Source: Lacisediminihabitans profunda
Lineage (GTDB): Bacteria > Actinomycetota > Actinomycetes > Actinomycetales > Microbacteriaceae
Length of the DNA: 64,000 nucleotides
Reading direction: 5' to 3'
NCBI RefSeq assembly: GCF_008040105.1
Contig: NZ_VRMG01000015.1
Span: 1-64,000 of the forward strand
Shown here: positions 13,189 to 51,678 of the stretch, one piece after another
Layout: the number at the start of each line of letters is the position of its first letter
Numbering within the stretch: the stretch's first letter is position 1
Translations under genes and position numbers: made by a program
The notes under the pieces: model-generated
The model's database searches: none
Told to the model about the DNA's origin: nothing
Seen by the model: the letters and a program-made list of their open reading frames with translations, nothing else

Positions 13189-13829
13189 TCTGTCTGGGTA
13201 TTTCGTGGCGAGGACCCGAGGAATTCCGCGGCGGTCGCTTCGCCCTCAGCGGAGATGTCTTCTCTGCGCAACACCGTTTGAACGGTTCGGAGCAGGATTC
13301 TCAAGTCCAAGATGAGGCTGCGGCGGTCAACGTATTCCGTGTCAAGGTCGAATTTCTCTTGCCAGGTCAGTGAGTTGCGTCCGCTGACCTGCGCCAGACC
13401 GGTGATTCCCGGGCGCACGTCGTGCCTTCGCGCCTGCTCTGGCGTATACCGGTCAAGGTACTGCACAAGCAACGGTCGCGGTCCAACGATGCTCATCTCA
13501 CCTCTGAATACGTTGACAAGAGTCGGAAGCTCATCCAGGCTCGTAGATCGGAGACCCTGCCCGAACTTAGTGAGGCGCTGTTCGTCGGTGACGAGCCCGC
13601 GAGACAGATCGAGGTTCTTCATCGTGCGGAACTTGTAGAGGCGGAATACCTTGCCCTTCAGTCCTGGCCGTTGCTGTGCGAAGAGCACAGGTCGCCCGAG
13701 CCTCGCCGCCACAAGCACGCCCACGACGATCATTATCGGCGAGAGCAGAACGAGGGCAATCCCAGACGAACCGATGTCCAGCCCGCGCTTGAGGGCCGAA
13801 TATGCCGTCCGACGCGCAGAACCGCTCAC
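13185..13829 (-). CDS. pglC: Initiating phosphoglycosyl transferase, PglC-like
   Basis: A 214-residue monotopic phosphoglycosyl transferase. One N-terminal hydrophobic re-entrant helix (about residues 17-42) is followed by Y-K-F-R-T-M, S-L-D-E-L-P and S-I-V-G-P-R-P motifs. It has the short PglC form, without the extra helices of WbaP/WcaJ. The family transfers a sugar phosphate from UDP-sugar to undecaprenyl phosphate, starting glycan assembly on the cytoplasmic face. Flanked by pglE- and pglD-like genes with 4-base overlaps, it probably uses a bacillosamine-type sugar. A CDP-alcohol or galactose donor is less likely. Confidence 0.9.
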   Translation of the reverse strand: MSGSARRTAYSALKRGLDIGSSGIALVLLSPIMIVVGVLVAARLGRPVLFAQQRPGLKGKVFRLYKFRTMKNLDLSRGLVTDEQRLTKFGQGLRSTSLDELPTLVNVFRGEMSIVGPRPLLVQYLDRYTPEQARRHDVRPGITGLAQVSGRNSLTWQEKFDLDTEYVDRRSLILDLRILLRTVQTVLRREDISAEGEATAAEFLGSSPRNTQTE

Positions 13830-14962
13830 GCCCGAACGCTCGCGAAGGGTTGGAGGCCTGCGACAACGCGCGAGATCTCGATCTCACTCAACGACGACCC
13901 GCTTGGGAGCGTCAAACCCGTCTCGAATAGCCGCTGCGAGTTCCCATTGCGCAGAGAGCCGGAGGCCTCAAACACGGGCTGAAGGTGCATGGGCTTCCAC
14001 AGCGGCCGGCTCTCGATGTTGTCATCGAGAAGCGCGGCGCTCAACTCTGCCGGGGTCCAGCCGGTCCTCGCCGAATCGACAACGATCGACGTGAGCCAGA
14101 AGTTGTCTTCGTGATCGTCCTCGCCACCGAAGACCTCCACTCCATCGACGTCTGCGAAAAGTTCACGATAGACCTCTCGCATCGCCCGCCGTCGCGCGAT
14201 CATGTCGTCGAGCCGGGTGAGTTGGGCGCGTCCCAGAGCGGCAAGCAGGTTGCTCATGCGGTAGTTGTAGCCGATGTCGACGTGCTCGTAATGAGCAACG
14301 GGTTGGCGCGCTTGCGTCGCCAGGTATCGGGTGCGTGCTGCAAGCTCGGCGTCGTCGGTGAGCAGCATGCCCCCGCCAGACGTCGTCATGATCTTGTTGC
14401 CATTGAAGGAGATGACGGAAGCAGCGCCGAACGATCCGGCGGCACGCCCTTGATGCCGCGCGCCGAGCGATTCCGCAGCATCCGCCAGAACCGGAATTCC
14501 GAACTCCGCCGCAATTGCGCAAATCCGCGTGTAATCGACGGCCTTGCCCAGCAGATCGACGGGCACGATCGCCCCGATGCGCTCGCCGTCGCTCCTGAGT
14601 TGCTCGATCGCCTGGCGCAGCAACTGTGGGTGCATGTTGCCGGTCTCGAGCTCGCAATCGATGAAGAACGGTTCCGCCCCGGTGTAGACGATGGCGTTGG
14701 CCGTGGCCGCGAATGTCATCGTCGAGGTGAGAACTACGTCCCCGCGCTGGACTCCCAGTCCGAGCAGTCCGAGGTGCAGGGCCGCAGTTCCCGAACTCAA
14801 CGCCACCGCGTGAGCCACGCCCACTCGCGCGGCGAGTTCGGCTTCGAAGGCGTCTACATCCGGCCCCAGCGGGGCGATCCATCCGGAGCGCATCGCGGCG
14901 ATCACGTACTGCTCCTCCAACTCCCCGACATCGGGGGAGGACATGTAGATCCGGTCGCTCAC
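13826..14962 (-). CDS. pglE: DegT/DnrJ/EryC1/StrS aminotransferase, PglE-like
   Basis: A 378-residue PLP-dependent sugar aminotransferase. Visible features are the S-S-G-T-A-A-L-H cofactor loop near residue 56, D161 in D-A-A-E-S-L-G-A, and the PLP-binding Lys190 in F-N-G-N-K. PglE converts UDP-4-keto-6-deoxy-GlcNAc to the 4-amino sugar using glutamate. The gene starts in the stop of the dehydratase (4-base overlap). GC content seems to fall within this gene: its 5' two thirds match the GC-rich right side, while its end and the following genes are less GC-rich. Confidence 0.88.
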   Translation of the reverse strand: MSDRIYMSSPDVGELEEQYVIAAMRSGWIAPLGPDVDAFEAELAARVGVAHAVALSSGTAALHLGLLGLGVQRGDVVLTSTMTFAATANAIVYTGAEPFFIDCELETGNMHPQLLRQAIEQLRSDGERIGAIVPVDLLGKAVDYTRICAIAAEFGIPVLADAAESLGARHQGRAAGSFGAASVISFNGNKIMTTSGGGMLLTDDAELAARTRYLATQARQPVAHYEHVDIGYNYRMSNLLAALGRAQLTRLDDMIARRRAMREVYRELFADVDGVEVFGGEDDHEDNFWLTSIVVDSARTGWTPAELSAALLDDNIESRPLWKPMHLQPVFEASGSLRNGNSQRLFETGLTLPSGSSLSEIEISRVVAGLQPFASVRA

Positions 14963-16854
14963 CGCGCCGCCTTGCGGCGAGACGATGACGCCGCCGCGAG
15001 CGGACGGGTCGGATGACCGCTCAGTCGCGCATGCCAGCCCGCTTTGTCCAAGTGGGTGGGGTCGATCCCGTCGATGGTCGTGTGGGAGATCGACGGGTGC
15101 ACCGGGCGCTCGTCTGACTCGCGATCACCGATCAACACCTCGTGCAACTTCTCCCCCGCGCGCAAGCCGGTGTAGACGATGGCGATGTCCTTGCCCGACA
15201 TCTCGATCATGCGCTCTGCCACATCGAGGATGCGCACCGGCTCGCCCATGTCCAGAATGAGCACCTCGCCCGGGCGACCGATTCCGCCGGCCTGCACCAC
15301 CAGTTGGCAGGCCTCGGGGATGGTCATGAAGAAGCGTGTGACGTCGGGGTGGGTGATGGTGAGCGGGCCGCCCGCCTCGATGAGGGCGGTGAAGGTGGGG
15401 AGCATGGAGCCACGGCTGCCGATCACGTTGCCGAATCGCACCGAGAGGTAGCCGAGTCCGGTCTGGTCGGCCGCCCAAGCCGTGAGCTTCTCTGCGACGC
15501 GCTTGGAGTGGCCCAGCACGCTCGTGGGATTGGCCGCCTTGTCGGTGGAGATGTTGACGAAGGTGGTGACCCCCACCGCCCTCGCCGCGTTCAGGACGTT
15601 GAGCGTGCCGAGCACGTTGGTCTTCCAGGCCTCGTCCGGATACTGCTCGAGCATCGGCAGGTGTTTGAGCGCGGCCGCATGGAACACCACGTCGGGCCGG
15701 CGCGCTTGGAAGATCGCCTCGAGCGCCTCGATGTCGCGGATGTCCGCGAGCACCACATCCTTCGTGTCGAGCAGGCCGTGCCCGGAGATCGAGATCTGCG
15801 TGCCCTGGAGGCCGGTCTCGTCACGGTCGAGCATGATGAGTTCGCTCGGCTGGAATTTCGAAATCTGGCGACACAGTTCGGATCCGATCGACCCGCCCGC
15901 CCCCGTGACGAGCACCTTCTTGCCCTTGAGGTAGCCGGCGATCGACTCCATCTGGGTGTCGACCGGGTGCCTGCCGATCAGGTCCTCGATCGAGATCTCT
16001 CGAAGGTCGCGTAGCCGGGACTTGCCGGCGAGTACTTCTTCGAGGGGCGGAAGCACCTTCACGAGCAATCCGGCCTCGGCCGCGTTGTCGGAAATCTCAC
16101 GCAGGAGGGACGCGTCGGCGTGCGCGATCGTGACCACGAGCACCGTGGCATCCGTGGCTCGCGCCACCGCGTGCAGGTCGGCTCGGGTGCCCATCACCTT
16201 CACGCCGTGCACCCACGCGTGTCGCTTGTGCAGGTCGTCGTCGATGATGCCGGCTGGGACGTAGGCCGACCCCTGGTCGGTCTGCATGCGTCGGATGATC
16301 GACGCCCCCAGGTGCCCGGCCCCGTAGATGAGCGTCATCTCCGCGCCCTCCGCCGGTTGGGTCGACCGCTCGGCCACCACGCGGCTCACATAGCGGACGC
16401 CTCCCGTGAGCACGAAGGCGATGGGCGCCGCAATGAGCACCGTGCTTCGCGGGATTCCGACCTGGTTTCCGAAGAGCAGAATCGGGATGCCGAGGATGAC
16501 GGTGACGGAGGCCACGGCCCCGAGCAGCGAGACGACCTCGCCGAAGCTGCCGCTGGAGTGGCGGCCTCGGTAGAGGTAGAACGCCCAGCCGAAGACGAAT
16601 TGCAGCACGACGGCCGCGGCGCAGACGAAGACGAGTGGCAGCCAGGTCACCCGCTCGAGGTCGAGCTCGAAGCGAAGGATGATTCCGATGCCCAGCGCCA
16701 AGACCCAGGAGAGCGCATCAAAGGAGTACTGCGTGACGAAACGCGGAACGGTGCCTCTGCGCACACGCGATATCTCGCGCACCACCATATTCGTTTCCTT
16801 TTTGGTCCGCCGCCCAGTGGCCTGATTGACGTTCTCGTTCAAGCTGAGTGCCAC
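14959..16854 (-). CDS. pglF: UDP-GlcNAc 4,6-dehydratase, membrane-bound PglF/WbpM/CapD-type
   Basis: A 631-residue protein with four N-terminal membrane helices (about residues 45-155), a first Rossmann domain (L-I-Y-G-A-G-H-L-G-A at 175-184) and a catalytic SDR domain beginning V-L-V-T-G-A-G-G-S-I-G at 314-324. The S-T-D-K-A-A-N-P-T-S segment at 436-445 and the L-G-H-S-K-R at 447-452 are the family active-site region. It removes water from UDP-GlcNAc to give the 4-keto-6-deoxy sugar, the first step of bacillosamine synthesis. It opens the minus-strand operon F-E-C-D-dehydrogenase-flippase. The start codon is GTG. Confidence 0.92.
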   Translation of the reverse strand: MALSLNENVNQATGRRTKKETNMVVREISRVRRGTVPRFVTQYSFDALSWVLALGIGIILRFELDLERVTWLPLVFVCAAAVVLQFVFGWAFYLYRGRHSSGSFGEVVSLLGAVASVTVILGIPILLFGNQVGIPRSTVLIAAPIAFVLTGGVRYVSRVVAERSTQPAEGAEMTLIYGAGHLGASIIRRMQTDQGSAYVPAGIIDDDLHKRHAWVHGVKVMGTRADLHAVARATDATVLVVTIAHADASLLREISDNAAEAGLLVKVLPPLEEVLAGKSRLRDLREISIEDLIGRHPVDTQMESIAGYLKGKKVLVTGAGGSIGSELCRQISKFQPSELIMLDRDETGLQGTQISISGHGLLDTKDVVLADIRDIEALEAIFQARRPDVVFHAAALKHLPMLEQYPDEAWKTNVLGTLNVLNAARAVGVTTFVNISTDKAANPTSVLGHSKRVAEKLTAWAADQTGLGYLSVRFGNVIGSRGSMLPTFTALIEAGGPLTITHPDVTRFFMTIPEACQLVVQAGGIGRPGEVLILDMGEPVRILDVAERMIEMSGKDIAIVYTGLRAGEKLHEVLIGDRESDERPVHPSISHTTIDGIDPTHLDKAGWHARLSGHPTRPLAAASSSRRKAAR

Positions 16855-22455: not shown

Positions 22456-24012
22456 CTAACGGGCAACCACGCCGAGACCGCTCGCTTCGACGACGACATC
22501 GTTCTCGCCGCCCCGTTGGAAGTGCCTGAACACCAGCCACGCGGCGACCGCAGCCCACGCTGCCATGGCCACCGTCAGGGCGATCCAGCCGAGCGGTGGC
22601 TGCCAGGCGGGGTTCGTGAGCATGTCGTTGAACGAGCCGTTGACACCCACCGCATAGCGCCGCAGCGTCCACGCGAAGCTCGCCACCTGCCCGATGGCCA
22701 GAAGTGCGATCCCCACGGCCGCGAGGCGGCGCGGGCGCCCCGTAACGACCTCCTCCGCCAGGGAGTCGTCGAGAGACAGTCCGCAGGCCACGAGAAGACA
22801 CACCAGCATCGCGAGCATGTAGCGCCCCTGCCAGATGTATCCGAGCTGGGGGGCGAGGATCGCCTGCACGACCGGTGGCACGACGACCATGACCATGCCG
22901 AAGCCGATGGCCACCCATCGTGACCTGCCAGATCCCCATACGAAGGCGACGAGGATCAGCGCCACGATTGCGGCGCTCCACACGATCACACTGAAGGCCG
23001 GCGACGGAGTGTCCAGCCAGCCGAAGTCGCCCACGTAGGAACTCGCGAAGTCGAAGGTGCGTACCAGCATGGTTCGAAAGGCCTCAGCGGAACCGGTCGT
23101 CTGCGTGCTCGCGAGGTCCGGGGCGAATGGGGTGGGATGGGCGTACCAGAACGCCGCGGCGCCGGATATGGCGGCGGACGCGCCCAGGAGAAGCCAGACG
23201 GCGGGAGTTCGGAAGAGTGGCACCAGCGTCTTTCGCGGCGTCACCGCCAGAACCGCACCGACGATCACGAGCGCCCAGAGCAGGGAGATGCTCCGGGTGT
23301 TAACCAGCAGAGTGAGGGTCACCAGCGTCAGCACCGTTCTCTCCCAGAGGACCGCACCGCCCAGATTCGACCGCACGAGCGCGAGGAGGGTTGCGAACAG
23401 AGCGCCCCCCGAGGCAACCTCTATCGCGTTCGGATTGATGGATCCACACAGGAAGAACACCATCGGGGTGAGACCGACGACCGCGCCAGCCGTCGCCCAC
23501 CGGGACCGCGAGAGTGTCGACAGCTGCATCACCATCACGGCGAGCGCCGCCGCGCAGAGGAGCGCGTTCACGAACCGCATGCCGTAGAGGGCGACATCGC
23601 CATGGAGGAATAGCGTGGGCAGCCCGACGATCGCGTAGTAGACGGGACTATTGTTGCCTGCCGAGGTCCCCGTGGTGACGATGGCCTCCGGGTCGCCGGC
23701 AATCGGCACCGCGCAGGCCGGTGTCAGGCGGGGGTGGCGCGCGAAACAGGCCCGCGCCACCATGTCCGCGACGTACGCCGGAACATCGGCTCGCGCCGTC
23801 GACGGATTCCCCACCCACGCCTCGGTGACGCTCTCCCCCCGAACCACCGCGGCCGCGCGGATCGCGTGCGCCGGTTCATCCGGCACGGAGGCGAGCGGCG
23901 AGCCGAGGGCCCACAGCAACATCGGCGCCAGAAGCACCGCGAACGATACGAGGAATACCCGCCACCGACCGGCGACCCTCTCGGCGTCCCCCGCAATGTG
24001 GTCCCCGGTCAT
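22456..24012 (-). CDS. DUF2142 polytopic membrane protein
   Basis: A 518-residue membrane protein with about 12 helices. After the first helix it carries V-P-D-E-P-A-H-A-I-R-A-A-A-V-V-R-G-E, and later N-N-S-P-V-Y-Y-A-I-V-G-L-P, both hallmarks of DUF2142. The acidic residues in the first external loop resemble those of GT-C glycosyltransferases, which use polyprenyl-phosphate donors. A transferase role is therefore plausible but unproven. A clear paralogue is encoded at 36947-38536. The start has no ribosome binding site; TAGACT lies about 35 bases upstream on the minus strand. Confidence 0.85.
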   Translation of the reverse strand: MTGDHIAGDAERVAGRWRVFLVSFAVLLAPMLLWALGSPLASVPDEPAHAIRAAAVVRGESVTEAWVGNPSTARADVPAYVADMVARACFARHPRLTPACAVPIAGDPEAIVTTGTSAGNNSPVYYAIVGLPTLFLHGDVALYGMRFVNALLCAAALAVMVMQLSTLSRSRWATAGAVVGLTPMVFFLCGSINPNAIEVASGGALFATLLALVRSNLGGAVLWERTVLTLVTLTLLVNTRSISLLWALVIVGAVLAVTPRKTLVPLFRTPAVWLLLGASAAISGAAAFWYAHPTPFAPDLASTQTTGSAEAFRTMLVRTFDFASSYVGDFGWLDTPSPAFSVIVWSAAIVALILVAFVWGSGRSRWVAIGFGMVMVVVPPVVQAILAPQLGYIWQGRYMLAMLVCLLVACGLSLDDSLAEEVVTGRPRRLAAVGIALLAIGQVASFAWTLRRYAVGVNGSFNDMLTNPAWQPPLGWIALTVAMAAWAAVAAWLVFRHFQRGGENDVVVEASGLGVVAR

Positions 24013-32619: not shown

Positions 32620-33324
32620 TCAGTGAGCGGCGCGCTCGAGCCACCGTTCGATCAACGGTCGCACGCTCTCCCTCGTGCGCAGCCCCTCCAGACCCGAGCG
32701 GGTCAGATCGTTCGCCTCGTAGGCGAGCCTGAGCGCGGTCACCGTGTCGTCGTCGATTCCGAGTCGCGACATTCCGACCGCATTCACCCCGTGCAGCCGA
32801 GCCGGATTCCCGAACGACTTGGCGAACGGCGGCACGTCTCTCGTCACCACCGCGCCCATTCCCACCATCGCCCCCGCACCGATGAAGCGCGACTGGTGTA
32901 CGGCCGCGCCGAGGCCGAGATTCGCGTTGTCGCCAATCTCGACGTGGCCGGCCAGGAGCACGCTCGACGCGAGGGTGATCCGGTCGCCCAGCACGCAGTC
33001 GTGCGCGATGTAGACCTGATTCATGACGAAAAGGTCGTCGCCCAGTCGGGTCGTGCCCTTCCAGCCCTGATGAACCTGGGCGTACTCGCGGATCACATTG
33101 CGGTCGCCGATCACGATTCCATTGCCGGAACTCATCGCCAGCGAATCGGTCGGATGCTCCCACGAGCGCACCTCGGGCGGGGCGCCGATCACGGCGCCCG
33201 TGCCGATCCAGTTGCCGTTTCCGATCGAGACCGGACCGGTGATCACCGCGAGGGGACCGACGGTGTTTCCGGTGCCCATGGTCACGTCACCGGTGATGAT
33301 CGCCGATGGGTGAATCGAATTCAC
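32620..33324 (-). CDS. LpxA-like UDP-sugar acyltransferase
   Basis: A protein of about 234 residues built of left-handed beta-helix hexapeptide repeats, with the C-terminal helical extension of LpxA. Counted from the upstream GTG at 33339, the LpxA histidines are present: H113 in I-A-H-D, H132 in L-L-A-G-H-V (the catalytic position) and H148 in A-V-H-Q. The G-N-P-A-R-L-H-G-V-N motif is also typical. I favour the GTG at 33324, preceded by AAGGGA. LpxA normally starts lipid A synthesis, absent from actinobacteria. The neighbouring aminotransferase and oxidoreductase suggest it acylates a 3-amino sugar. TTGAGC-16-TATAAC on the minus strand is a good promoter. Confidence 0.85.
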   Translation of the reverse strand: MNSIHPSAIITGDVTMGTGNTVGPLAVITGPVSIGNGNWIGTGAVIGAPPEVRSWEHPTDSLAMSSGNGIVIGDRNVIREYAQVHQGWKGTTRLGDDLFVMNQVYIAHDCVLGDRITLASSVLLAGHVEIGDNANLGLGAAVHQSRFIGAGAMVGMGAVVTRDVPPFAKSFGNPARLHGVNAVGMSRLGIDDDTVTALRLAYEANDLTRSGLEGLRTRESVRPLIERWLERAAH

Positions 33325-33382
33325 GTCTGATCCCTTCACCGCGCAGGGGCCCCGAAGCAGAGGCAGCTCGCAGAACGTCTAC

Positions 33383-33390
33383 GTTATAGT
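33383..33390. promoter_or_regulatory. Symmetric divergent -10 element
   Basis: GTTATAGT gives TATAGT on the plus strand (for the aminotransferase at 33438) and TATAAC on the minus strand (for the LpxA-like gene). The minus side has a -35-like TTGAGC 16 bases away (33405-33410). One element driving both would co-express the two halves of the proposed pathway. Confidence 0.5.
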
Positions 33391-33437
33391 TGCATGTTTG
33401 CTCGGCTCAAATTTCGCAATCAGCTCCGTGAGGTCCG

Positions 33438-34544
33438 ATGATCCCCATTACATCCGTTCGATTTGGACAAGAAGAAGAAGATCTCGTACTCGGAGTTCTC
33501 AGGTCCGGCTCGATCGCTCAAGGACCGATGGTGAAGAGGTTCGAAGAGGAATTCGCGTCAATGTTTGGCCACAAGCATGCGATCGCGGTAAACAACGGAA
33601 CGACCGCCCTCGTCGCGGCGCTCGAGGTTCTCGATCTGCAGCCCGGCGACGAAGTGATCACGACCCCGTTCACCTTCGTTGCCACCCTCAACGCCATCCT
33701 CGAGGCCGGCGCCAGCGTCACCTTCGCGGACATCCGTGAAGACGACTTCAACCTCGATCCGGATTCGGTTGCCTCCCGAATCGGCGAGCACACGCGGGTG
33801 ATCATGCCCGTTCACCTCTATGGCCAAATGGCCGACATGGCTCCCCTCGAGAAGCTTGCAGCCGTGCACGATCTGCGAATCCTCGAGGACTCGGCGCAGT
33901 CCCACGGCGCCACCTACTCTGGTCGACCGGCCGGCAGCTATGGCATCGGAACGTTCTCCTTCTACGCGACCAAGAACATCACTACCGGCGAGGGAGGCAT
34001 GATCGTCACCGATGACGACGCCCTGGCCGACCGACTCCGGATCTTGCGAAACCAAGGCATGCGGGAACGTTATGTCTACGAGGTCGCCGGCCACAACTAC
34101 CGACTCACCGACCTGCAGGCCGCAATCGCGATTCCGCAACTGGCGCGGTACGAGAGCACCGTCGCCACCCGCCAGTCGACGGCCGATCGGCTCATCGCGG
34201 GCCTGGGCGACGTCCCCGGCCTCATCGTTCCCCGCCAACTCGATGGCCGGTCGCACGTGTGGCACCAGTTCACCATTCGTGTCACGGAGGATGCCCCGCT
34301 CGATCGCGACGAGTTCGTTGCCCGCCTTCATGAGGCAGGGGTCGGGGCAGGCGTCTACTACCCGAAGCTGCTCTTCGATTACGACGCCTACCGCGACCAT
34401 CCTCGGGTCGCGCAGTCCGAGGTTCCGGTCGCCCGGAAGCTCGCGGGCCAGGTCGTGTCGTTGCCCGTGCACAACGCCCTGAGCGAGGACGACATCTCCA
34501 CCATCATCTCCGTGGTCACCGACGTGATGTCTGGCCGATCATGA
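33438..34544 (+). CDS. DegT/DnrJ/EryC1/StrS sugar aminotransferase (GnnB/WbpE-like)
   Basis: A 368-residue PLP enzyme with N-N-G-T-T-A-L near residue 52, D151 in D-S-A-Q-S-H-G-A and the PLP Lys179 in F-Y-A-T-K-N. The A-T-K-N-I-T-T-G-E-G-G form is typical of 3-aminotransferases such as WbpE, GnnB and DegT relatives, in contrast to the PglE form in this window. It would aminate a 3-keto nucleotide sugar made by the oxidoreductase whose gene overlaps it by 4 bases. GAGG at 33430 provides its ribosome binding site. Confidence 0.87.
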   Translation: MIPITSVRFGQEEEDLVLGVLRSGSIAQGPMVKRFEEEFASMFGHKHAIAVNNGTTALVAALEVLDLQPGDEVITTPFTFVATLNAILEAGASVTFADIREDDFNLDPDSVASRIGEHTRVIMPVHLYGQMADMAPLEKLAAVHDLRILEDSAQSHGATYSGRPAGSYGIGTFSFYATKNITTGEGGMIVTDDDALADRLRILRNQGMRERYVYEVAGHNYRLTDLQAAIAIPQLARYESTVATRQSTADRLIAGLGDVPGLIVPRQLDGRSHVWHQFTIRVTEDAPLDRDEFVARLHEAGVGAGVYYPKLLFDYDAYRDHPRVAQSEVPVARKLAGQVVSLPVHNALSEDDISTIISVVTDVMSGRS

Positions 34545-35503
34545 CGGCGCAACGGCGGGTCCTCCTCGTCGGGGCCGGCAACATGGGCACCAACCACGCC
34601 AGAGTCATCTCCCAGTCGGACCGCGCGACGCTCGTCGGCATCGTCGACCCGCGCGATGACGTAGGCAACTCAATCGCCGGGCGATTCAACACACAGTGGT
34701 ATCCCGAGCTCCCCGACCTCACAAACATCGATGCCGTAGTTGTCGCCGCGGCCACCGAGGCCCATTTCGACCTCTCGATGACGGTTCTGGCTCAGGAGAC
34801 GGCCCTGCTCGTGGAGAAGCCGGTGGCCGATAGCCTCCTGCGCACGAGCGAGGTGCTTGCTGAGGCTGACCGGCGCGACCTCCCCTTCATGTGCGGCCTT
34901 CTCGAGCGGTTCAATCCGGCCGTGCTCACGGCGATGACCCTGATCACCGACCCGTTCCACGTCACAGCAACTCGCCACTCCCCGTACACTCCGCGCATCA
35001 AGACGGGGGTCGCGTGGGACCTGCTCGTTCACGACGTCGACCTGGCGATCATGATCCTCGGCTCCAACCCGATCAAGGTCAACTCGAAGCTCGGCTTCTT
35101 CCACAAGGAGTCGAACCCCGAGGCGGAAGACGTCGCGGAGACCCTGCTCGAGTTCGAGAACGGTGCGGTGGCGCACGTCTCCGCCAGCCGAGTGGGCCAG
35201 CGCAAGATCCGACAGCTGTCCGTCTACGAGAGCGAGAAGCTCGTCGAGGTCGACCTGCTGAGGCGCGACGTGACCGTCTACCGGCACGTCGCCGAATCGG
35301 CGGACGACGAGGGCCGTGGGTACAGGCAGCAGACCGTCATCGAGATTCCCGAGCTGATCACCTCGCAGGAGCCGCTGACCACCCAGTTCACGCGCTTTCT
35401 CGACATCATCGACGGCAAGGTCGATGCGGCAACCGAGCGTTCATCGATCTTCCCCTCACACTCGGTGATCGATCAGGTCATCGCCGGCCGCTCGAACGGC
35501 TGA
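34541..35503 (+). CDS. Gfo/Idh/MocA oxidoreductase (GnnA/WbpB-like)
   Basis: A 320-residue NAD(P)-dependent oxidoreductase. The N-terminal dinucleotide motif G-A-G-N-M-G-T-N-H is at about residues 9-17, the E-K-P-V-A-D motif near 89, and D-L-L-V-H-D-V-D-L holds the conserved His. Relatives GnnA and WbpB oxidise C3 of UDP-GlcNAc or UDP-GlcNAcA, and the paired aminotransferase then makes a 3-amino sugar. Start ATG overlaps the aminotransferase stop. Simple inositol-dehydrogenase-type function is less likely given the neighbours. Confidence 0.85.
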   Translation: MTAQRRVLLVGAGNMGTNHARVISQSDRATLVGIVDPRDDVGNSIAGRFNTQWYPELPDLTNIDAVVVAAATEAHFDLSMTVLAQETALLVEKPVADSLLRTSEVLAEADRRDLPFMCGLLERFNPAVLTAMTLITDPFHVTATRHSPYTPRIKTGVAWDLLVHDVDLAIMILGSNPIKVNSKLGFFHKESNPEAEDVAETLLEFENGAVAHVSASRVGQRKIRQLSVYESEKLVEVDLLRRDVTVYRHVAESADDEGRGYRQQTVIEIPELITSQEPLTTQFTRFLDIIDGKVDAATERSSIFPSHSVIDQVIAGRSNG

Positions 35504-35504
35504 C

Positions 35505-35957
35505 GTGTCCGAATTGGACCAATCCCGCCGCGAGGAGCGTCTTCGAACACTCCTTGGATCTCTTTCCCGGAGAAGCGGAGTGCGCTATGTCGCGGTCGGC
35601 GGCCTGGCGTTCGTCGTGGATTTCGGCCTGGTGTTCGTGTTCTACCGGCTTGTCGGGTGGCCATTGTGGCTCGCCACCGGAGCGGGGTTCGTGGCCAGCT
35701 TCGGCGTCAACTACACGCTCCAGCGTCTCTTCTCGTTCAGTTCGAACGCCCCGCACGGCGGAGCGCTTCTGCGGTATTCGCTGCTCGTGGTGGTCAATAC
35801 GCTGCTCACGATAGGAATCGTCACTCTCTTCGATTCGACTATCGTGGGCTGGGGCGGGGGCAAGGTCGTCGCGACGATTGTCACCACGATCGGCAACTAT
35901 TTTGCCTACCGGCACTGGGTCTTCCCGTCCCGACGCACAACACCGAAGGAAGACTAG
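35505..35957 (+). CDS. GtrA family membrane protein
   Basis: A 150-residue protein with four hydrophobic helices and the GtrA pattern: F-V-V-D-F-G-L in the first helix, A-S-F-G-V-N-Y-T-L-Q-R-L-F-S-F in the middle and N-Y-F-A-Y-R-H-W-V-F-P at the C-terminus. GtrA-like proteins are thought to flip polyprenyl-phosphate-linked sugars. Starts at GTG one base after the oxidoreductase stop. The GtrB-like transferase follows immediately. Confidence 0.88.
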   Translation: MSELDQSRREERLRTLLGSLSRRSGVRYVAVGGLAFVVDFGLVFVFYRLVGWPLWLATGAGFVASFGVNYTLQRLFSFSSNAPHGGALLRYSLLVVVNTLLTIGIVTLFDSTIVGWGGGKVVATIVTTIGNYFAYRHWVFPSRRTTPKED

Positions 35958-35959
35958 CC

Positions 35960-36928
35960 GTGTACAAAGGCGCCACCATCGCTGCGGTCGTTCCGGCCTA
36001 CAAAGAAGAACAGATGATCTCAAAGGTCATCGAGACGATGCCGGACTTCGTGGACCACATCGTCATCGTCGACGACCACAGTCCGGATGACACCTCCGGC
36101 GCGGTCATGCGTGCAGCCGACCCCCGCGTGACCCTGATCAGGCACGAAGTGAACCAGGGCGTCGGTGGCGCCATCATCACGGGGCACCACGCTGCCATGG
36201 ACCTCGGCTCGGACGTCAACGTAATCATGGCCGGCGACGCCCAGATGGATCCCGACTATCTCCCGCAGCTGCTCGATCGGGTGACGGTGGAGGGATTCGG
36301 CTTCGCCAAGGCCAACCGTTTCTTCTCCCCGGAGTCCTTCGAAGGCATGCCGAGGCATCGTGTCTTCGGCAACATCGTGCTGTCCTTTATGACCAAGTTG
36401 ACGTCCGGGTACTGGCACCTCTTCGACCCCCAGAACGGCTACACCGCGATTCGCACCGAAGCCCTCAAACGGGTGCCTCTGCACGCGGTCTCACGCCGTT
36501 ACAGTTTCGAGAACGATCTGCTCATCCACCTCAACATCCTGCAGGTCTCCGCCGTCGACGTCCCGATTCCGGCCGTGTACGGCAACGAGGTCTCCAGCAT
36601 CAAGCTCGGCAGGGTCATCCCCGAACTTCTCAACCTGCTGTTCCGCGGATTTTGGCGCCGAATCTGGTACCGCTACGTGCTGTGGTCGTTCTCGCCCATT
36701 GCGCTGCTCCTCGTCCTTGGACTCTTCCTGTCCGCGTTCGGACTCGGAGTCGCGGTCTGGGTCTGCTTCCAAATCGCGGGCTCTGTGGTGGCCACGGCGG
36801 CGACAGTCATGCTTGCCGCGCTGCCGCTGATGCTCGGCACCCAGATGCTCATCAGCGCACTGCAACTCGACATCCAGGCTAGTCCGTCGTCGCCGACGTT
36901 CCTCCCCTTCGAGCCCGCAGAGAAGTAG
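35960..36928 (+). CDS. Polyprenyl-phosphate glycosyltransferase, GtrB/DPM1-like with membrane tail
   Basis: A 322-residue GT2 starting at GTG, 2 bases after the GtrA-like stop. It has A-V-V-P-A-Y-K-E-E at the N-terminus, V-D-D-H-S-P-D-D-T near residue 38, and M-A-G-D-A-Q-M-D-P as metal-binding motif. Two C-terminal membrane helices (about residues 230-300) follow, as in GtrB and ArnC. It would load a sugar onto undecaprenyl phosphate for use outside the membrane. The GtrA-GtrB pairing supports this. Confidence 0.88.
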   Translation: MYKGATIAAVVPAYKEEQMISKVIETMPDFVDHIVIVDDHSPDDTSGAVMRAADPRVTLIRHEVNQGVGGAIITGHHAAMDLGSDVNVIMAGDAQMDPDYLPQLLDRVTVEGFGFAKANRFFSPESFEGMPRHRVFGNIVLSFMTKLTSGYWHLFDPQNGYTAIRTEALKRVPLHAVSRRYSFENDLLIHLNILQVSAVDVPIPAVYGNEVSSIKLGRVIPELLNLLFRGFWRRIWYRYVLWSFSPIALLLVLGLFLSAFGLGVAVWVCFQIAGSVVATAATVMLAALPLMLGTQMLISALQLDIQASPSSPTFLPFEPAEK

Positions 36929-36946: not shown

Positions 36947-38536
36947 TCAGACGCGATCGATCACCGGTTCCCCGGTCTCGAACGTCGGCTCGGGCAGCTT
37001 CTGGGCGGCGTGCCAGAGGGAGATCACCACGACCATTCCGAGGGCGAGCAGCGCAATCCAGGGCAGGGAGCCGCCTGGAGGAGCCCACGTCGGGTTGTGC
37101 AGGAAGCCGACGATCGAGGATGCCGCGGTGCCCGAGTAGCGGTTGATGGCGGTCGTCAGGCTGTACACCTGCCCGATGAACACGGCCACGGCGACCACAA
37201 TCACGAATCCCCCGACGGCCGCCGGCGCACGCTCCGTGACGAAATGACTGCGCCCGATTGCCACCGCCGCGAAAAGGGTGACGAACACGAAGGCGACCAG
37301 CGTGTATCGCCCCTGCCAGATGAACCCGGACCTCTCGACGGAGAGCGCCTGAACGACCGGTGGCACGAACACAAGCGCGGCGAGGGCGACGAGGAAGCCC
37401 GCGAGGGCGCGCCCCCTCGCGAGCGCGAATACTCCTGCCAGCAGCGCCGCGAACAAGGCGGACCAGACCAAATAGACGAAAGCGGGTGCCGGTGTATCCA
37501 GCCAACCGAAGATGCCCACGATGCCGGGGTCGATGGACCGATTGACCAGCATCTCGTAGAAGCCACGGACGAGCGACGTCTTTCCGGCGCCCGGGAAGAC
37601 GCCCATCGCGCTCAGCGTGCCCGTGCGTAGAAGCCAGACGCCTGCGAAGATCACCCCACCCACCATGACGGTGAGGGCGACGAGAACGCCGCGGTTCGCG
37701 AGCAGCGCCCTGATGCGGCTCCACGGAGAGAAGACGAGCACAGCGATCCCGATCACCGCCATCCACAGTGGGGAGAGCCCTCGCGCGTTCGCCATCAGGA
37801 ATCCCGATGCGGCGACGAAGCCGAGAACCGTGGACCGTCGCAGCCCCTGAGCGCCGAGCACAAGGTAAAGCAAGCCGACCGTGAGGGCGGCACCAGTGGC
37901 GATCTCAAGTGAGTTCGGGTTCACCGCCCCGGACAGGAACAGCACCATCGGAGTGAGTGCGGTGAAGAAGGCCGCGCCGGCGATCGCCGGACGAACGAGT
38001 CGAAGAAGTCCAGTGAACGCAAACGCGAGAAACAGGCTGGAGAGTATCCCGCTCAGGAACCGCATGGCGAGCACGGATGTCTGAGTGTCGGGGATCACGA
38101 GCGACGGCAGGCCGACGATGGCGTAGTAGATCGGGTTGTACAGCCCTGCGCTCGTCTGAGCACTCTTGAGCGTGAGGCCGCTGTCCACTCGGCCGATGCA
38201 GTCGGCGCCCGTGGCGGCGTTGAAGGCGTAGCACGGCCAGCTCGACGCCTGCGCGAGCCCGATCGGCACCTGAACTTTCGTGATGGCCGGTGAGGACGTG
38301 AGCTCCCCGATGAACTCGCCTCGAACAACCGCGGCCGCCTTGATGATGTGCGCCGGTTCGTCCGGACTGGCGCCAAGAGGGGTCGACCCTGCCCACGCGA
38401 TGGACGCTATCGACAGCGCGGCCCAGGTCACAAGAAAGGTGAGTCGCCCGGAACGAATGACGACGGTCAACAGCCGTGAAACGGAGTTGGTCGCGCCCCT
38501 TCGCTCGCTGCGTGCTGGTACATCGGTTTTAGTCAT
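36947..38536 (-). CDS. DUF2142 polytopic membrane protein (paralogue)
   Basis: A 529-residue membrane protein with about 12 helices. It shares with the protein encoded at 22456-24012 the block S-P-D-E-P-A-H-I-I-K-A-A-A-V-V-R-G-E, the Y-N-P-I-Y-Y-A-I-V-G-L-P segment and F-I-W-Q-G-R-Y near the C-terminus. The pair are clear but diverged paralogues. DUF2142 proteins are probably GT-C-like transferases acting on lipid-linked sugars outside the cell, which fits the GtrA/GtrB genes just upstream. No direct functional evidence is visible. Confidence 0.85.
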   Translation of the reverse strand: MTKTDVPARSERRGATNSVSRLLTVVIRSGRLTFLVTWAALSIASIAWAGSTPLGASPDEPAHIIKAAAVVRGEFIGELTSSPAITKVQVPIGLAQASSWPCYAFNAATGADCIGRVDSGLTLKSAQTSAGLYNPIYYAIVGLPSLVIPDTQTSVLAMRFLSGILSSLFLAFAFTGLLRLVRPAIAGAAFFTALTPMVLFLSGAVNPNSLEIATGAALTVGLLYLVLGAQGLRRSTVLGFVAASGFLMANARGLSPLWMAVIGIAVLVFSPWSRIRALLANRGVLVALTVMVGGVIFAGVWLLRTGTLSAMGVFPGAGKTSLVRGFYEMLVNRSIDPGIVGIFGWLDTPAPAFVYLVWSALFAALLAGVFALARGRALAGFLVALAALVFVPPVVQALSVERSGFIWQGRYTLVAFVFVTLFAAVAIGRSHFVTERAPAAVGGFVIVVAVAVFIGQVYSLTTAINRYSGTAASSIVGFLHNPTWAPPGGSLPWIALLALGMVVVISLWHAAQKLPEPTFETGEPVIDRV

Positions 38537-41754: not shown

Positions 41755-42666
41755 ATGGCAGGCACAGAAATGTCTTCTCGTGAGCGCGAGGCGGCCCTTG
41801 CAGCGGCACCCTGGCAGGACGCAGGAGCGACGGGCAGCCTCTTCCGCGGCACCGCCACCTCGATTTCGGACATCTGGCGGCGCCGGGAGCTGTTGAGCAT
41901 GCTCACCCGCCGAGAACTCAAGTCTCGGTATAAGGACAGCGCCCTGGGTTTCCTCTGGAGCCTGGCCCGCCCGTTGACGCAGCTGCTCATCTACTACGTC
42001 GTCGTCGGCCAGTTCCTCCACGCCGCTCGCGGCATCGACAACTTCGCTGTGTACATCTTTTCCGGACTGACGATCTACACGCTGTTCAGCGAGATCATTC
42101 AGACCGGTACCGGGTCGATCATCGCCAACTCCGGACTCGTCAAGAAGGTCTACCTGCCCCGGGAGATCTTCCCGCTGGCCACAATCGGCTCGGCACTCTT
42201 CAACTTCTTTATTCAATTCCTCATCCTCGTTGTGGCTGCCCTGGTCATCGGCACTCTCAGCTTTGGGACTCACCTGCTTTTCGCCGTCGGAGCTCTGGGC
42301 ATCGTCCTCATCTATGGCGCGGCCTTGGCGCTGATTCTGTCCGCGGTGAACGTGTTCCTGAGGGACGTTCAGTACATCGTCGAGGTTGTGCTGCTCCTGC
42401 TGATGTGGGGTTCGCCGATCGTGTATTCGCTGAAAGCGGTCTCCGGCTTCTTCCCGAATTGGCTCCTCCAGATCTATATCGACAACCCGGTGACGCTCGC
42501 CGTACTCGGGTTCCAGGACGCGTTCTGGTCGCCCACCGGCGAGGGAGGGTCTCCCTCGGATCTGCCACTCCGAATGTTGCTCATCGGGCTTCTCGGGCTC
42601 GTCCTACTTTTCGGTGCCCAGCGCCTCTTCACGAGACTCTCCGGTAACTTCGCTCAGGAGCTGTAA
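41755..42666 (+). CDS. wzm: Polysaccharide ABC exporter permease (Wzm-like)
   Basis: A 303-residue ABC-2 permease with six membrane helices. R-R-E-L-K-S-R-Y-K-D-S-A-L-G-F-L-W-S at about residues 57-74 is the typical cytoplasmic coupling region of polysaccharide or teichoic-acid exporters (Wzm/TagG). GGAG lies 8 bases before ATG. Its stop overlaps the ATPase start (TAATG). It would form the channel for lipid-linked polymers completed in the cytoplasm. Confidence 0.92.
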   Translation: MAGTEMSSREREAALAAAPWQDAGATGSLFRGTATSISDIWRRRELLSMLTRRELKSRYKDSALGFLWSLARPLTQLLIYYVVVGQFLHAARGIDNFAVYIFSGLTIYTLFSEIIQTGTGSIIANSGLVKKVYLPREIFPLATIGSALFNFFIQFLILVVAALVIGTLSFGTHLLFAVGALGIVLIYGAALALILSAVNVFLRDVQYIVEVVLLLLMWGSPIVYSLKAVSGFFPNWLLQIYIDNPVTLAVLGFQDAFWSPTGEGGSPSDLPLRMLLIGLLGLVLLFGAQRLFTRLSGNFAQEL

Positions 42667-43871
42667 TGAATTCCCCCGTCAACGTCGTGCAGGTCAATGA
42701 CGTCTCCAAGCGCTTCATCGTGCGCAAAGACAACAGCATCAAAGAGCGCATCGTCAATTTCGGTCGCGGAGCCCGCTATCGGGAAGACTTCTGGGCCCTT
42801 CGCAACGTCGACATCGAAATAGCGGCCGGTTCGACAGTCGGCCTCATCGGCCCCAATGGTTCGGGCAAGAGCACGCTCCTCAAGGCCATCGGCGGGATCA
42901 TTCAGCCGACCACCGGGTCGGTGCAGCGCCGCGGACGGATGGCCGCGCTTCTCGAATTGGGAGCAGGCTTCCACCAGGACCTCACCGGCCGCGAAAACGT
43001 GTACCTCAACGCGTCGATTCTGGGCCTGTCCCGCAAACAGACCGACATGCACTTCGATGACATCGTGGAGTTTTCCGGCATCGAGGCCTTCATCGACACT
43101 CAGGTCAAGTTCTACTCGAGCGGCATGTATGTGCGCCTCGCCTTTGCCGTGGCAGTGCACGTTGATCCCGATCTACTCCTCGTCGACGAGGTGCTTGCGG
43201 TGGGCGACGAAGCGTTCCAACGCAAGTGCCTGGACAAGATTCGATCCTTCCAGGACGAGGGCCGCACCATCGTGCTCGTCACTCACTCTCTGAATCAGGT
43301 GACGGACTTCTGCAATCGAGCGATCGTTCTCGCGCGTGGCAGCGTGGTCTTCGACGGGGAACCGATCGACGCGGTCTCCGTTCTGAGGTCCGGTTTCGAG
43401 GCGACATACGAAGCCGACGCCACAGGGCACGGGACCTTCAAACAGCCCGCCGGCGAACGCGGAAAGATCGCCCGAGTGCGCGTTCTGGACGGCCAGGGGC
43501 ACGAGCAGAGAAACTTCTCCACTGGTGACGATCTCCTCGTCGAGGTCGACGTTGAGTCGGCCACCCCATTGAACAAATGGGCGGTGGGCCTGCACATCGA
43601 CAACCCCCTCGGTCAACTCGTCACCGGAGCCACCTCCAAGAGCCTCGACGCGAAGTTCCCGACCCTTGACGGTGCGGCCCGGGTGCGCTTCGCCCTTCCT
43701 CGAGCCAACTTCGGCGGCGGGGAATACGGGGTCACGGTGGCAATGTTCGGCTCTGACGACCAGGAAATCGCCCGTGCAACCGACGCGGCCTCCTTCTCAA
43801 TCGGGCAGCACGCGCGGTCCTGGGGGCCCCTCTTTACCGATGTCTCCGTCGGCATGACGCCGATTGACTAG
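42666..43871 (+). CDS. wzt: Polysaccharide ABC exporter ATPase with Wzt carbohydrate-binding domain
   Basis: A 401-residue protein. The ATPase domain has Walker A G-P-N-G-S-G-K-S-T at residues 62-70, signature Y-S-S-G-M-Y-V-R-L-A-F and Walker B L-L-L-V-D-E-V-L-A-V-G. Residues about 255-400 form a beta-sandwich like Wzt-C, which in Gram-negative O9a systems binds the terminal modification of the finished glycan. This implies that the exported chain ends in a defined cap; the methyltransferase encoded 1 kb downstream may supply it. TagH-type exporters lack this domain. Confidence 0.93.
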   Translation: MNSPVNVVQVNDVSKRFIVRKDNSIKERIVNFGRGARYREDFWALRNVDIEIAAGSTVGLIGPNGSGKSTLLKAIGGIIQPTTGSVQRRGRMAALLELGAGFHQDLTGRENVYLNASILGLSRKQTDMHFDDIVEFSGIEAFIDTQVKFYSSGMYVRLAFAVAVHVDPDLLLVDEVLAVGDEAFQRKCLDKIRSFQDEGRTIVLVTHSLNQVTDFCNRAIVLARGSVVFDGEPIDAVSVLRSGFEATYEADATGHGTFKQPAGERGKIARVRVLDGQGHEQRNFSTGDDLLVEVDVESATPLNKWAVGLHIDNPLGQLVTGATSKSLDAKFPTLDGAARVRFALPRANFGGGEYGVTVAMFGSDDQEIARATDAASFSIGQHARSWGPLFTDVSVGMTPID

Positions 43872-45766: not shown

Positions 45767-45900
45767 CTGCACCGCCCAGGGACGTTAGTTAACCGGCTGA
45801 TGGGTGGGCCGGCTCCGATCGCGGTGTGGAGCCAGGCCAGGAGGGCATTTCGGCCCGCCTGTCCCCGCCATTGTGCGGCACTCCCTCGCCCGGGCACGCG

Positions 45901-46275
45901 TTGTGCAGGACGGCTCGGGCGTCCACGGGTGTCCGCCCTACACACTCCAGTTATGCAGGACGGGTTATGCAGGACGGGTTGTGCAGGACGGGTTGTGCAG
46001 GACGGGTTGTGCAGGACGGGTTGTGCAGGACGGTGCCGCCGTCCACGGGCGCCCACCCCGCAGACTCCAGTTATGCAGGACGGGTCGCGCAGGACGGCAG
46101 GACGGGTTGTGAAGGACGCCTCGGGCGGATAGCGAGGACGAGAGGTGCAGAACCGACGGGAGCGTCCTGCAGAGCGGGACCCTTCGGTTCGCCACCCCCT
46201 GCCGTGTCCTGCACAAGCTGTCCTGCACAACTGGAGTCTGCGGGGTAGGCACCCGCACCACCGGGGCCCGTCCTG
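45901..46275. repeat. Mosaic of tandem 14-mers and inverted long repeats
   Basis: Six tandem copies of a 14-base unit (TTGTGCAGGACGGG and variants) fill 45951-46034. A longer 64-base unit occurs at 45901-45964 and again at 46021-46084 (54 of 64 bases identical). Its right half, 46047-46080, reappears inverted at 46221-46254 with 31 of 34 bases matching. Further partial copies, such as the inverted CGTCCTGCAG, lie at 46163 and 46269. All of this sits in the 663-base gap between two converging genes. It resembles a REP- or MITE-like element. Flanking parts 45767-45900 and 46276-46429 show nothing else. Confidence 0.85.
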
Positions 46276-50472: not shown

Positions 50473-51678
50473 ATGCCACGAGAATTCGACAACGACGTCG
50501 TCGTCGTCGGCGGCGCCGGCCACGTCGGCCTGCCGCTCGCGATCGCGCTCGCCGACCGTGGGGCGTCCGTGGTGATCTACGACCTCAGCGAAACCGCGGT
50601 CGCGCTGATCAACGGCGGCACGGTTCCGTTCCTCGAGCCGGGGGCCGAGCCGATGCTTCGCGGGGCTCTCCTGGCCGGACGCATCCGCGCCACGACGGAT
50701 GCAGCGGTCGTCGGCGACGCCCGCAACATCGTCGTCGTGATCGGCACGCCGGTGGACGATCACCTCAATCCAGACCCGAATGCGATCCCCAAGGCACTCG
50801 GCGCCTGCAGCCAATACCTGCGTGACGGGCAGCTGCTGGTGCTGCGCAGCACCGTGTACCCGGGAGTGACCGCCCTCGTCGAGAGGATGATCGCGGGTCT
50901 CGGGGTGGACGTTCCCGTGGCCTTCTGCCCGGAGCGCATCGCCGAGCACCGGGCGATGACCGAGCTGTTCAGCCTGCCGCAGATCGTCTCCGCCCGCACG
51001 TCGGCGGGGCGGGAGCGCGCCGCCGAGCTCTTCGGACTGCTCACCGAACAGATCGTGCACCTCGAACCGGAGGAGGCCGAGCTCGCGAAGCTCTTCACGA
51101 ACACCTGGCGGTACATCAAATTCGCCGCGGCGAACCAGTTCTACATGATGGCCAATGATCGCGGACTCGACTTCGAGAAGATCCGCGCCGGGCTCACCAA
51201 GGACTACCCGCGGGCGAGCGACATGCCCGGCCCGGGCTTCGCCGCCGGTCCGTGCCTCTTCAAGGACACGATGCAGCTCGCCGCGTTCAGCGACAACACC
51301 TTCAGCCTCGGGCACTCGGCAATGCTGGTGAACGAGGGCCTGCCGCTCTACCTCGTCAGCCGGCTCGAGAAGCGATTCGACCTGGCGAACGCCACCGTGG
51401 GCATCCTCGGCATGTCGTTCAAGGCCGAATCCGACGACATCCGCTCGAGCCTGTCGTACAAGCTGCGTCGGGTGCTCAAGTTCAAGGCGAAGGGCGTGCT
51501 GTCCACCGACCCGTACGTCTCCGAGGAGACCGATGACACTCTCCTGCCTCTCGACCTCGTGCTGGAGAAGGCCGACATTCTCGTGATCGCCACCCCGCAT
51601 CCCGAGTACCGGGACTTGCGCACGGACAAGCCCGTCGTCGACGTCTGGAACATCCTGGGCAACGGGGTATTGGTGTGA
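50473..51678 (+). CDS. Nucleotide-sugar dehydrogenase, divergent subgroup
   Basis: A 401-residue UDP-glucose/GDP-mannose dehydrogenase family protein. The N-terminal V-V-V-G-G-A-G-H-V-G-L-P binds NAD, R-S-T-V-Y-P-G-V-T is the second motif, and the catalytic Cys261 is in A-A-G-P-C-L-F-K-D-T. That differs from the usual G-G-H-C-x-P-x-D-P, marking a separate subgroup with unknown substrate. It is the first gene of a tightly coupled operon with a GT2 and an epimerase. GAGG sits 7 bases upstream of the ATG. Confidence 0.85.
   Translation: MPREFDNDVVVVGGAGHVGLPLAIALADRGASVVIYDLSETAVALINGGTVPFLEPGAEPMLRGALLAGRIRATTDAAVVGDARNIVVVIGTPVDDHLNPDPNAIPKALGACSQYLRDGQLLVLRSTVYPGVTALVERMIAGLGVDVPVAFCPERIAEHRAMTELFSLPQIVSARTSAGRERAAELFGLLTEQIVHLEPEEAELAKLFTNTWRYIKFAAANQFYMMANDRGLDFEKIRAGLTKDYPRASDMPGPGFAAGPCLFKDTMQLAAFSDNTFSLGHSAMLVNEGLPLYLVSRLEKRFDLANATVGILGMSFKAESDDIRSSLSYKLRRVLKFKAKGVLSTDPYVSEETDDTLLPLDLVLEKADILVIATPHPEYRDLRTDKPVVDVWNILGNGVLV

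Follow-up and report, generated by a model that had tools for sequence, protein, structure and literature searches.

In Acidithiobacillus ferrooxidans, GnnA and GnnB act together with LpxA to build lipid A of the 2,3-diamino-2,3-dideoxyglucose (GlcN3N) type. According to PMC5644692, GnnA and GnnB convert UDP-N-acetylglucosamine (UDP-GlcNAc) to UDP-2-acetamido-3-amino-2,3-dideoxyglucose (UDP-GlcNAc3N). The WbpA/B/E/D/I route, which PMC10622841 places in Pseudomonas aeruginosa and Thermus thermophilus, resembles the route proposed below in its 3-oxidation, 3-amination and 3-N-acetylation. In PMC13274773, the utr cluster of Streptomyces griseus is described as serving an actinomycete wall polymer that contains a 2,3-diacetamido sugar. 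Here we describe a locus of the actinobacterium Lacisediminihabitans profunda, within a window of 64,000 nucleotides (the whole stretch of DNA that was analyzed; contig NZ_VRMG01000015.1, positions 1 to 64,000), where divergent genes encode an LpxA-like acyltransferase on one side and a DegT-family aminotransferase followed by a Gfo/Idh/MocA oxidoreductase on the other (Table 1). This trio most likely reuses lipid-A-like enzyme types for a surface sugar in a Gram-positive bacterium without lipid A. With moderate confidence, we propose that it leads from UDP-GlcNAc via UDP-GlcNAc3N to a short-chain N-acylated product destined for a wall glycan. No description of the trio in actinobacteria was found among the matches listed from the open-licence PMC literature.

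The three protein types that the first-pass annotation had assigned to these divergent genes were borne out by the open reading frames and their Pfam domains. The frames were verified at the limits given in Table 1, that of the acyltransferase being open over 32620-33339. We scanned the oxidoreductase alignment on named genomes and kept the best 80 of at least 251 confirmed loci. The aminotransferase gene adjoined the oxidoreductase gene in 79 of these, and the 80th (L119; L and G numbers are our labels for loci and genomes) lay at a contig end. An LpxA-like gene was present in 65 of the 80 loci, in 56 divergent within 400 bp, in 6 divergent with a larger gap and in 3 elsewhere. The trio thus spans six actinobacterial families, the LpxA-like gene being present in 19/19 loci of Microbacteriaceae, 40/50 of Pseudonocardiaceae, 1/6 of Micromonosporaceae, 3/3 of Cellulomonadaceae and the single loci (1/1 each) of Nocardioidaceae and Geodermatophilaceae. 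Given this recurrence, the arrangement is not due to chance, and the trio is a patchy but real cassette. Within Microbacteriaceae, the acyltransferase was matched at E <= 1e-30 in 14 of 199 genomes, the window's own counted. Seven of the 14, again including its own, had the divergent trio, six had Gfo and acyltransferase genes side by side on the same strand (hereafter the second context), and one (G047) had no Gfo gene within the 16 kb read. There was no acyltransferase match in the three same-genus genomes listed. A phylum-wide sample of 396 genomes held the acyltransferase in at least 4 and the oxidoreductase (E <= 1e-45) in at least 10, both lower bounds given that few candidates were scored per genome. 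In the sample of 199 genomes for the genus of G221, the LpxA-like protein was matched in 2 at E <= 1e-20 and in 17 at E <= 1e-12. In G387, approximately 5 kb separated the acyltransferase gene from the aminotransferase and oxidoreductase genes.

The oxidoreductase is GnnA-like by profile and by predicted fold, and oxidation of UDP-GlcNAc at C3 is its predicted activity. Its top match in the Protein Data Bank (PDB) was 7bvj/7bvk, titled UDP-N-acetylglucosamine 3-dehydrogenase GnnA of A. ferrooxidans, whether searched with the single sequence, with a profile (111 bits) or with the predicted fold (predicted local distance difference test [pLDDT] 91; ranks 1-5). The best NCBIfam model was NF040723, an archaeal UDP-GlcNAc 3-dehydrogenase equivalog, at 151.7 of 450 bits and so below its cut-off. 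The motifs E92-K93-P94 and D160/H164 were invariant in 23/23 rows. Identity to GnnA is approximately 22%, suggesting a shared subfamily at best. An oxidoreductase of the WbpB/WlbA type was ruled out by profile and fold ranks (34 versus 111 bits): 3q2k, which we take to be Bordetella pertussis WlbA, stood as far down as row 41 among the profile matches, aligning over the N-terminal part only, and no WlbA or WbpB title was among the 50 fold-search matches listed.

The best NCBIfam models for the acyltransferase are two LpxA models, and the protein falls below both equivalog cut-offs (183.8 versus 226 bits; 170.1 versus 231.05 bits). Its predicted fold (pLDDT 93) has LpxA-like C-terminal helices, and LpxA structures lead the fold search. 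Among them, at ranks 27, 28, 32 and 33, stands 8e62, Pcryo_0615 of Psychrobacter cryohalolentis, titled as an N-acetyltransferase required to produce a diacetamido-2,3- sugar. WlbB appeared only from rank 35, behind LpxA and 8e62, so the acyltransferase does not group by family with the short-chain WbpD-type enzymes, a grouping that the first-pass annotation had held would refute its proposal, and a WbpD/WlbB-type enzyme was ruled out by fold rank. Despite the different family, we expect its chemistry to be the same as that of WbpD. In an unrooted tree of 77 rows (some closely related Amycolatopsis rows removed, Escherichia coli LpxD left out, and L072 dropped from the alignment for an internal stop codon), 13 LpxA sequences were set apart from all the remaining sequences with 100% support in the SH-like approximate likelihood ratio test.

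The pocket residues also separate this family from LpxA. We compared 82 actinobacterial rows (72 named or divergent-type, including one duplicate given that L012 and L058 are identical; 7 second-context; and 3 others, L036-L038, read separately from these counts) with 12 LpxA sequences, namely E. coli LpxA, Burkholderia LpxA 4eqy and ten from a plasmid collection (five records without annotation; matches to E. coli FabZ lay beside 10/10 and to LpxB beside 7/10). P. aeruginosa LpxA 5dem was added by eye as the 13th. In E. coli LpxA numbering, position 155 is Met or Leu in 82/82 actinobacterial rows (Leu in the window protein) and Met in 8e62, whereas it is Gly (10) or Ala (2) in the 12 LpxA sequences and Gly in 5dem, giving Gly/Ala in 13/13. 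Position 173 is Met in 82/82 rows and in 8e62, and Gly (10), Val (1) or Ala (1) in the 12 LpxA sequences. Position 155 is the better marker, given that 5dem combines Gly155 with Met173. We take position 173 to be the hydrocarbon ruler of LpxA and a small residue at 155 to signify an open acyl groove. Position 73 is Glu in 68/72 and 7/7 rows and in 8e62, and Gln in 12/12 LpxA sequences, and among the 72 rows, position 122 holds Tyr 36 times, His 34 times and Trp twice. The conservation of the LpxA histidines noted by the first-pass annotation holds for the counterparts of H125, H144 and H160 and fails at H122, which is Tyr in the window protein. The equivalent of His125, presumably the catalytic residue of LpxA, is present in the window protein and in the remaining rows counted. 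Of N198, E200, R204 and R205, which we assume to be sugar-site residues of LpxA, the window protein keeps the equivalents of N198 and R204 and has Val for E200 and Leu for R205.

Pcryo_0615 shares with the window protein an LpxA-like fold, Glu73, Tyr122, Met173, Pro191 and a bulky residue at 155. It differs in its 189-residue chain, shorter at the C-terminus judging by chain length and alignment, and in a substrate that is uronic by the title of its paper. Long-chain acylation from acyl carrier protein (ACP), as in LpxA, appears unlikely for a protein that scores below the equivalog cut-offs, lies off the LpxA branch and has closed-pocket residues as in Pcryo_0615.

The genome (4,016,580 bases in 171 contigs, 98.97% complete) gave no match to lpxC or lpxB and no LpxD match over the cut-off, the best LpxD score (57.2 of 242.5 bits) being that of the acyltransferase gene itself. 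The lpxC and lpxB controls were over the cut-off in E. coli, Caulobacter, Synechococcus and Bacteroides (4/4), and the LpxD control matched 14/14 and was over the cut-off in 4. Lipid A synthesis was rejected on these results, which agree with the earlier expectation that an actinobacterium would not make it. According to PMC3087551, Kdo2-lipid A genes were missing from all seven of its Gram-positive genomes. The locus therefore has the same three protein types as A. ferrooxidans and an oxidoreductase nearest to the crystallized GnnA (7bvj), and it differs in lacking a detected lipid A pathway, in its polysaccharide context with GtrA, GT2 and DUF2142 proteins, in an acyltransferase that is bulky at 155 and 173 and apart from LpxA, and in the low identity to GnnA.

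In Gtr three-gene glycosylation, a GtrA flippase and the family 2 glycosyltransferase (GT2) GtrB work with a membrane transferase. The window likewise has GtrA, GT2 and a large membrane protein consecutively, although its third protein is of the DUF2142 family, is encoded on the opposite strand and has a putative transferase role. Given that these genes adjoin the trio, a transfer reaction that draws on polyprenyl phosphate and takes place outside the membrane is suggested. The wider neighborhood, with two GDP-mannose 4,6-dehydratase-like genes, an epimerase, glycosyltransferases and an ABC polysaccharide exporter, marks a surface-polysaccharide cluster.

Gene content, conservation of the trio, family relations, predicted folds, pocket residues and the lack of lipid A gene matches are thus direct observations, whereas in the following route all substrates, the donor of the acyl group, each of the three transfer steps and the polymer are inferred. 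The GnnA-like oxidoreductase would oxidize UDP-GlcNAc at C3, the DegT enzyme would aminate the product to UDP-GlcNAc3N, and the LpxA-like enzyme would place a short acyl group, most likely acetyl from acetyl-CoA, on the 3-amino group, yielding UDP-2,3-diacetamido-2,3-dideoxyglucose. The GT2 protein could then load the sugar onto polyprenyl phosphate, GtrA could flip it and the DUF2142 protein could add it to the wall polysaccharide. The proposal of the first-pass annotation, an N-acylated 2,3-diamino sugar of a wall polymer, is supported, together with a GnnA-like oxidoreductase and the lack of lipid A; LpxA-type long-chain acylation is not.

Several observations weigh against this route as drawn, and the alternatives have to be judged with them. 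An LpxA-like gene was not found in 15 of the 80 loci, with up to 6 kb searched on each side, and some of these have a flippase-like, HAD-like or ATP-grasp-like gene there instead (named by eye). The DegT sequence does not separate a 3- from a 4-aminotransferase, and its best matches are mixed, namely the NCBIfam model PseC, below its cut-off, and perosamine synthetase structures. These mixed matches, together with the GDP-mannose 4,6-dehydratase-like genes of the cluster, would fit a trio that works on another nucleotide sugar (e.g., UDP-N-acetylgalactosamine or a dTDP or GDP sugar) or with another short acyl group (e.g., formyl or 3-hydroxybutyryl). We consider this improbable, given that a UDP-GlcNAc 3-dehydrogenase heads both the fold and the profile matches of the oxidoreductase and that two of the four presumed sugar-site residues are kept, though the other two are replaced. 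For the acyltransferase, the best PDB match by phmmer was 4eqy at 142.4 bits, against 106.9 bits for the shorter 8e62, whereas 8e62 scored 78.7 bits with Sinorhizobium LpxA (last of 18 rows). Plain identity is undecisive at 39% to 4eqy (212 columns), 38% to 8e62 (172 columns) and 34% to E. coli LpxA. In addition, 8e62 forms a long branch, and joining it to LpxA was not rejected (approximately unbiased test, p 0.755; the tree so joined was 10.2 log units better). An LpxA activity proper, in which an ACP-borne medium- or long-chain hydroxyacyl group would be moved onto N3 to give a lipid-like wall sugar, would fit LpxA being the nearest named family and fold, C-terminal helices included, the retained catalytic His, and the occurrence of GnnA and GnnB in organisms whose LpxA takes their product. 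It is nonetheless highly improbable in view of Met/Leu155 with Met173 in every row, as in an N-acetyltransferase (Met173 by itself is not decisive, given 5dem), the non-matches to the other lipid A genes and the polysaccharide-cluster setting.

A Wbp-like uronic route is more probable than either of these, although we still judge it unlikely. Here, the dehydrogenase some 20 kb from the trio would supply UDP-N-acetylglucosaminuronic acid, from which the Gfo, DegT and LpxA-like enzymes would make UDP-2,3-diacetamido-2,3-dideoxyglucuronic acid, without a final 2-epimerase. The WbpA-like dehydrogenase reported earlier is indeed present: the window has two 6-dehydrogenases of the UDP-N-acetylhexosamine (UDP-HexNAc) type, approximately 20 kb and 15 kb from the trio, and two of the UDP-glucose type lie elsewhere in the genome. 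Nine other genomes have all three genes in one locus; a HexNAc-type enzyme is present in four (G044, G068, G479, G387), and the UDP-glucose type only in five (G178, G055, G024, G173, G473), as judged from PF03721 matches at E <= 1e-10 typed by best match, with an NCBIfam check for G024 and G044. In five of the six second-context Gfo genomes, 12-22 kb separate the acyltransferase from a HexNAc-type enzyme, and the sixth, G151 (99% complete), showed no 6-dehydrogenase at all. In Haloferax mediterranei, a related Gfo protein (33%) shares its locus with wecB and a nucleotide sugar dehydrogenase. On the other side, GnnA ranks first for the oxidoreductase, 3q2k (WlbA, as we assume) is far down the profile search and WlbB is a distant match of the acyltransferase fold, a difference from the Wbp route that extends to the 2-epimerase: PF02350 (WbpI type) had no match in the window's genome (control matched 11/14), making 2,3-diacetamido-2,3-dideoxymannuronic acid (ManNAc3NAcA) itself an unlikely product there. 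No nucleotide-sugar 6-dehydrogenase was found in any of the 80 named loci (up to 6 kb on each side; tblastn at E <= 1e-3 with the four dehydrogenases of this genome as queries), a search that matched 7/7 positive-control loci and in which 8/80 loci were shorter than 12 kb. The distribution of 6-dehydrogenases favors a non-uronic product for the divergent unit, and the uronic route is more open for the second-context units. Two literature points speak for the uronic route: Pcryo_0615 serves a glucuronic-acid pathway by the title of 8e62 and a reference in PMC10622841, and the authors of PMC13274773 liken the route to the ManNAc3NAcA wall polymer of S. griseus to that of P. aeruginosa.

Short-chain acylation of UDP-GlcNAc3N, the route that we prefer, may also bear on the origin of lipid A. 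We suggest tentatively, as a rather doubtful possibility, that GnnA/GnnB-like enzymes with an LpxA-fold N-acetyltransferase form a Gram-positive wall-sugar module related by descent to the initial steps in the synthesis of GlcN3N-type lipid A. LpxA may have been recruited from such an acetyltransferase when its pocket opened at position 155, or recruitment may have run the other way; both directions are compatible with the unrooted tree.

Variant units were also observed. In L073, L109 and L130, an ATP-grasp-like gene (identified by eye) occupies the divergent place of the acyltransferase gene and might add an amino acid to the 3-amino group; tblastn matched it in 5/80 named loci. Second-context units of the same family (L027, L028, L029, L032, L033, L035) have adjacent Gfo and acyltransferase genes on one strand. 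Their Gfo protein lies nearer to NF040723 (the two tested scored 230 and 223 bits), and in several, exporter-like genes come next (by eye). On the haloarchaeal plasmids L149 and L150, acyltransferase, DegT and Gfo genes are consecutive, a related archaeal unit with a more distant hexapeptide acyltransferase.

Relatives of the acyltransferase begin with M-N-[SAT]-I-H-P, which makes the GTG at 33324 a more probable start than 33339. The symmetric -10 element thought to be shared by the divergent genes was recovered in part: the octamer GTTATAGT is in place, while a consensus scan of the intergenic region found no sigma-70-like site (0 versus 0.2 expected) and the octamer recurred in 1/56 divergent named relatives (L061).

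Table 1. Features of the L. profunda window around the acyltransferase, aminotransferase and oxidoreductase genes.
Feature	Position	Strand	Remarks
LpxA-like N-acyltransferase	32620-33324	-	~234 aa; frame open to 33339; Pfam Hexapep and Acetyltransf_11 (LpxA C-terminal domain)
Intergenic region of divergent genes	33325-33437		GTTATAGT at 33383-33390, possible -10 element on both strands
DegT/DnrJ/EryC1/StrS aminotransferase	33438-34544	+	Pfam DegT_DnrJ_EryC1; putative GnnB-like role (3-keto to 3-amino)
Gfo/Idh/MocA oxidoreductase, GnnA-like	34541-35503	+	Pfam GFO_IDH_MocA; 4-base overlap with DegT gene; proposed UDP-GlcNAc 3-dehydrogenase
GtrA-family membrane protein	35505-35957	+	Proposed flippase of polyprenyl-linked sugar; with GT2 in 11/80 named loci
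Family 2 glycosyltransferase (GT2)	35960-36928	+	Putative GtrB-like role; with GtrA in 11/80 named loci
DUF2142 membrane protein	36947-38536	-	Putative GT-C-type transferase; jointly with GtrA and GT2 in 9/80 named loci
ABC-2 permease and ATPase with Wzt C-terminal domain	41755-43871	+	Polysaccharide exporter of surrounding cluster
UDP-HexNAc-type 6-dehydrogenase, WbpA-like	11201-12469	-	Required by the uronic-acid route only
Second, more divergent nucleotide-sugar 6-dehydrogenase, UDP-HexNAc-type	50473-51678	+	

Elsewhere in the cluster, a second DUF2142 membrane protein (22456-24012) joins the one in Table 1, so that there are perhaps two extracytoplasmic sugar transferases. A Pgl/bacillosamine-like cassette at 12547-16854 on the minus strand (PseB-like dehydratase, LegC-like aminotransferase, Bac_transf and NeuD/PglD-type acetyltransferase) adjoins the WbpA-like dehydrogenase gene. 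At 45900-46033 (plus strand), an intergenic array contains the 14-mer GTTGTGCAGGACGG, repeated in tandem 6 times at 45950-46033. Genome-wide, there are 89 exact copies (34 plus, 55 minus), many of them clustered with spacings of, e.g., 14, 50 or 64 bp, whereas the reversed-pattern control had 0 copies. No bacterial paper on this 14-mer was among the text-search matches listed.

Collectively, our findings provide a short residue signature that sets this family apart from LpxA, where the best NCBIfam models, though below cut-off, are those of LpxA. The signature predicts an N-acetylated 2,3-diamino surface sugar in actinobacteria, among them Cryobacterium, Agromyces, Amycolatopsis, Lentzea and Cellulomonas. 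Sugars of this kind are of interest as receptors: according to PMC13274773, a ManNAc3NAcA polymer of S. griseus is a receptor of umbrella toxin particles. The family also supplies relatives for asking how LpxA gained its fatty-acyl specificity.

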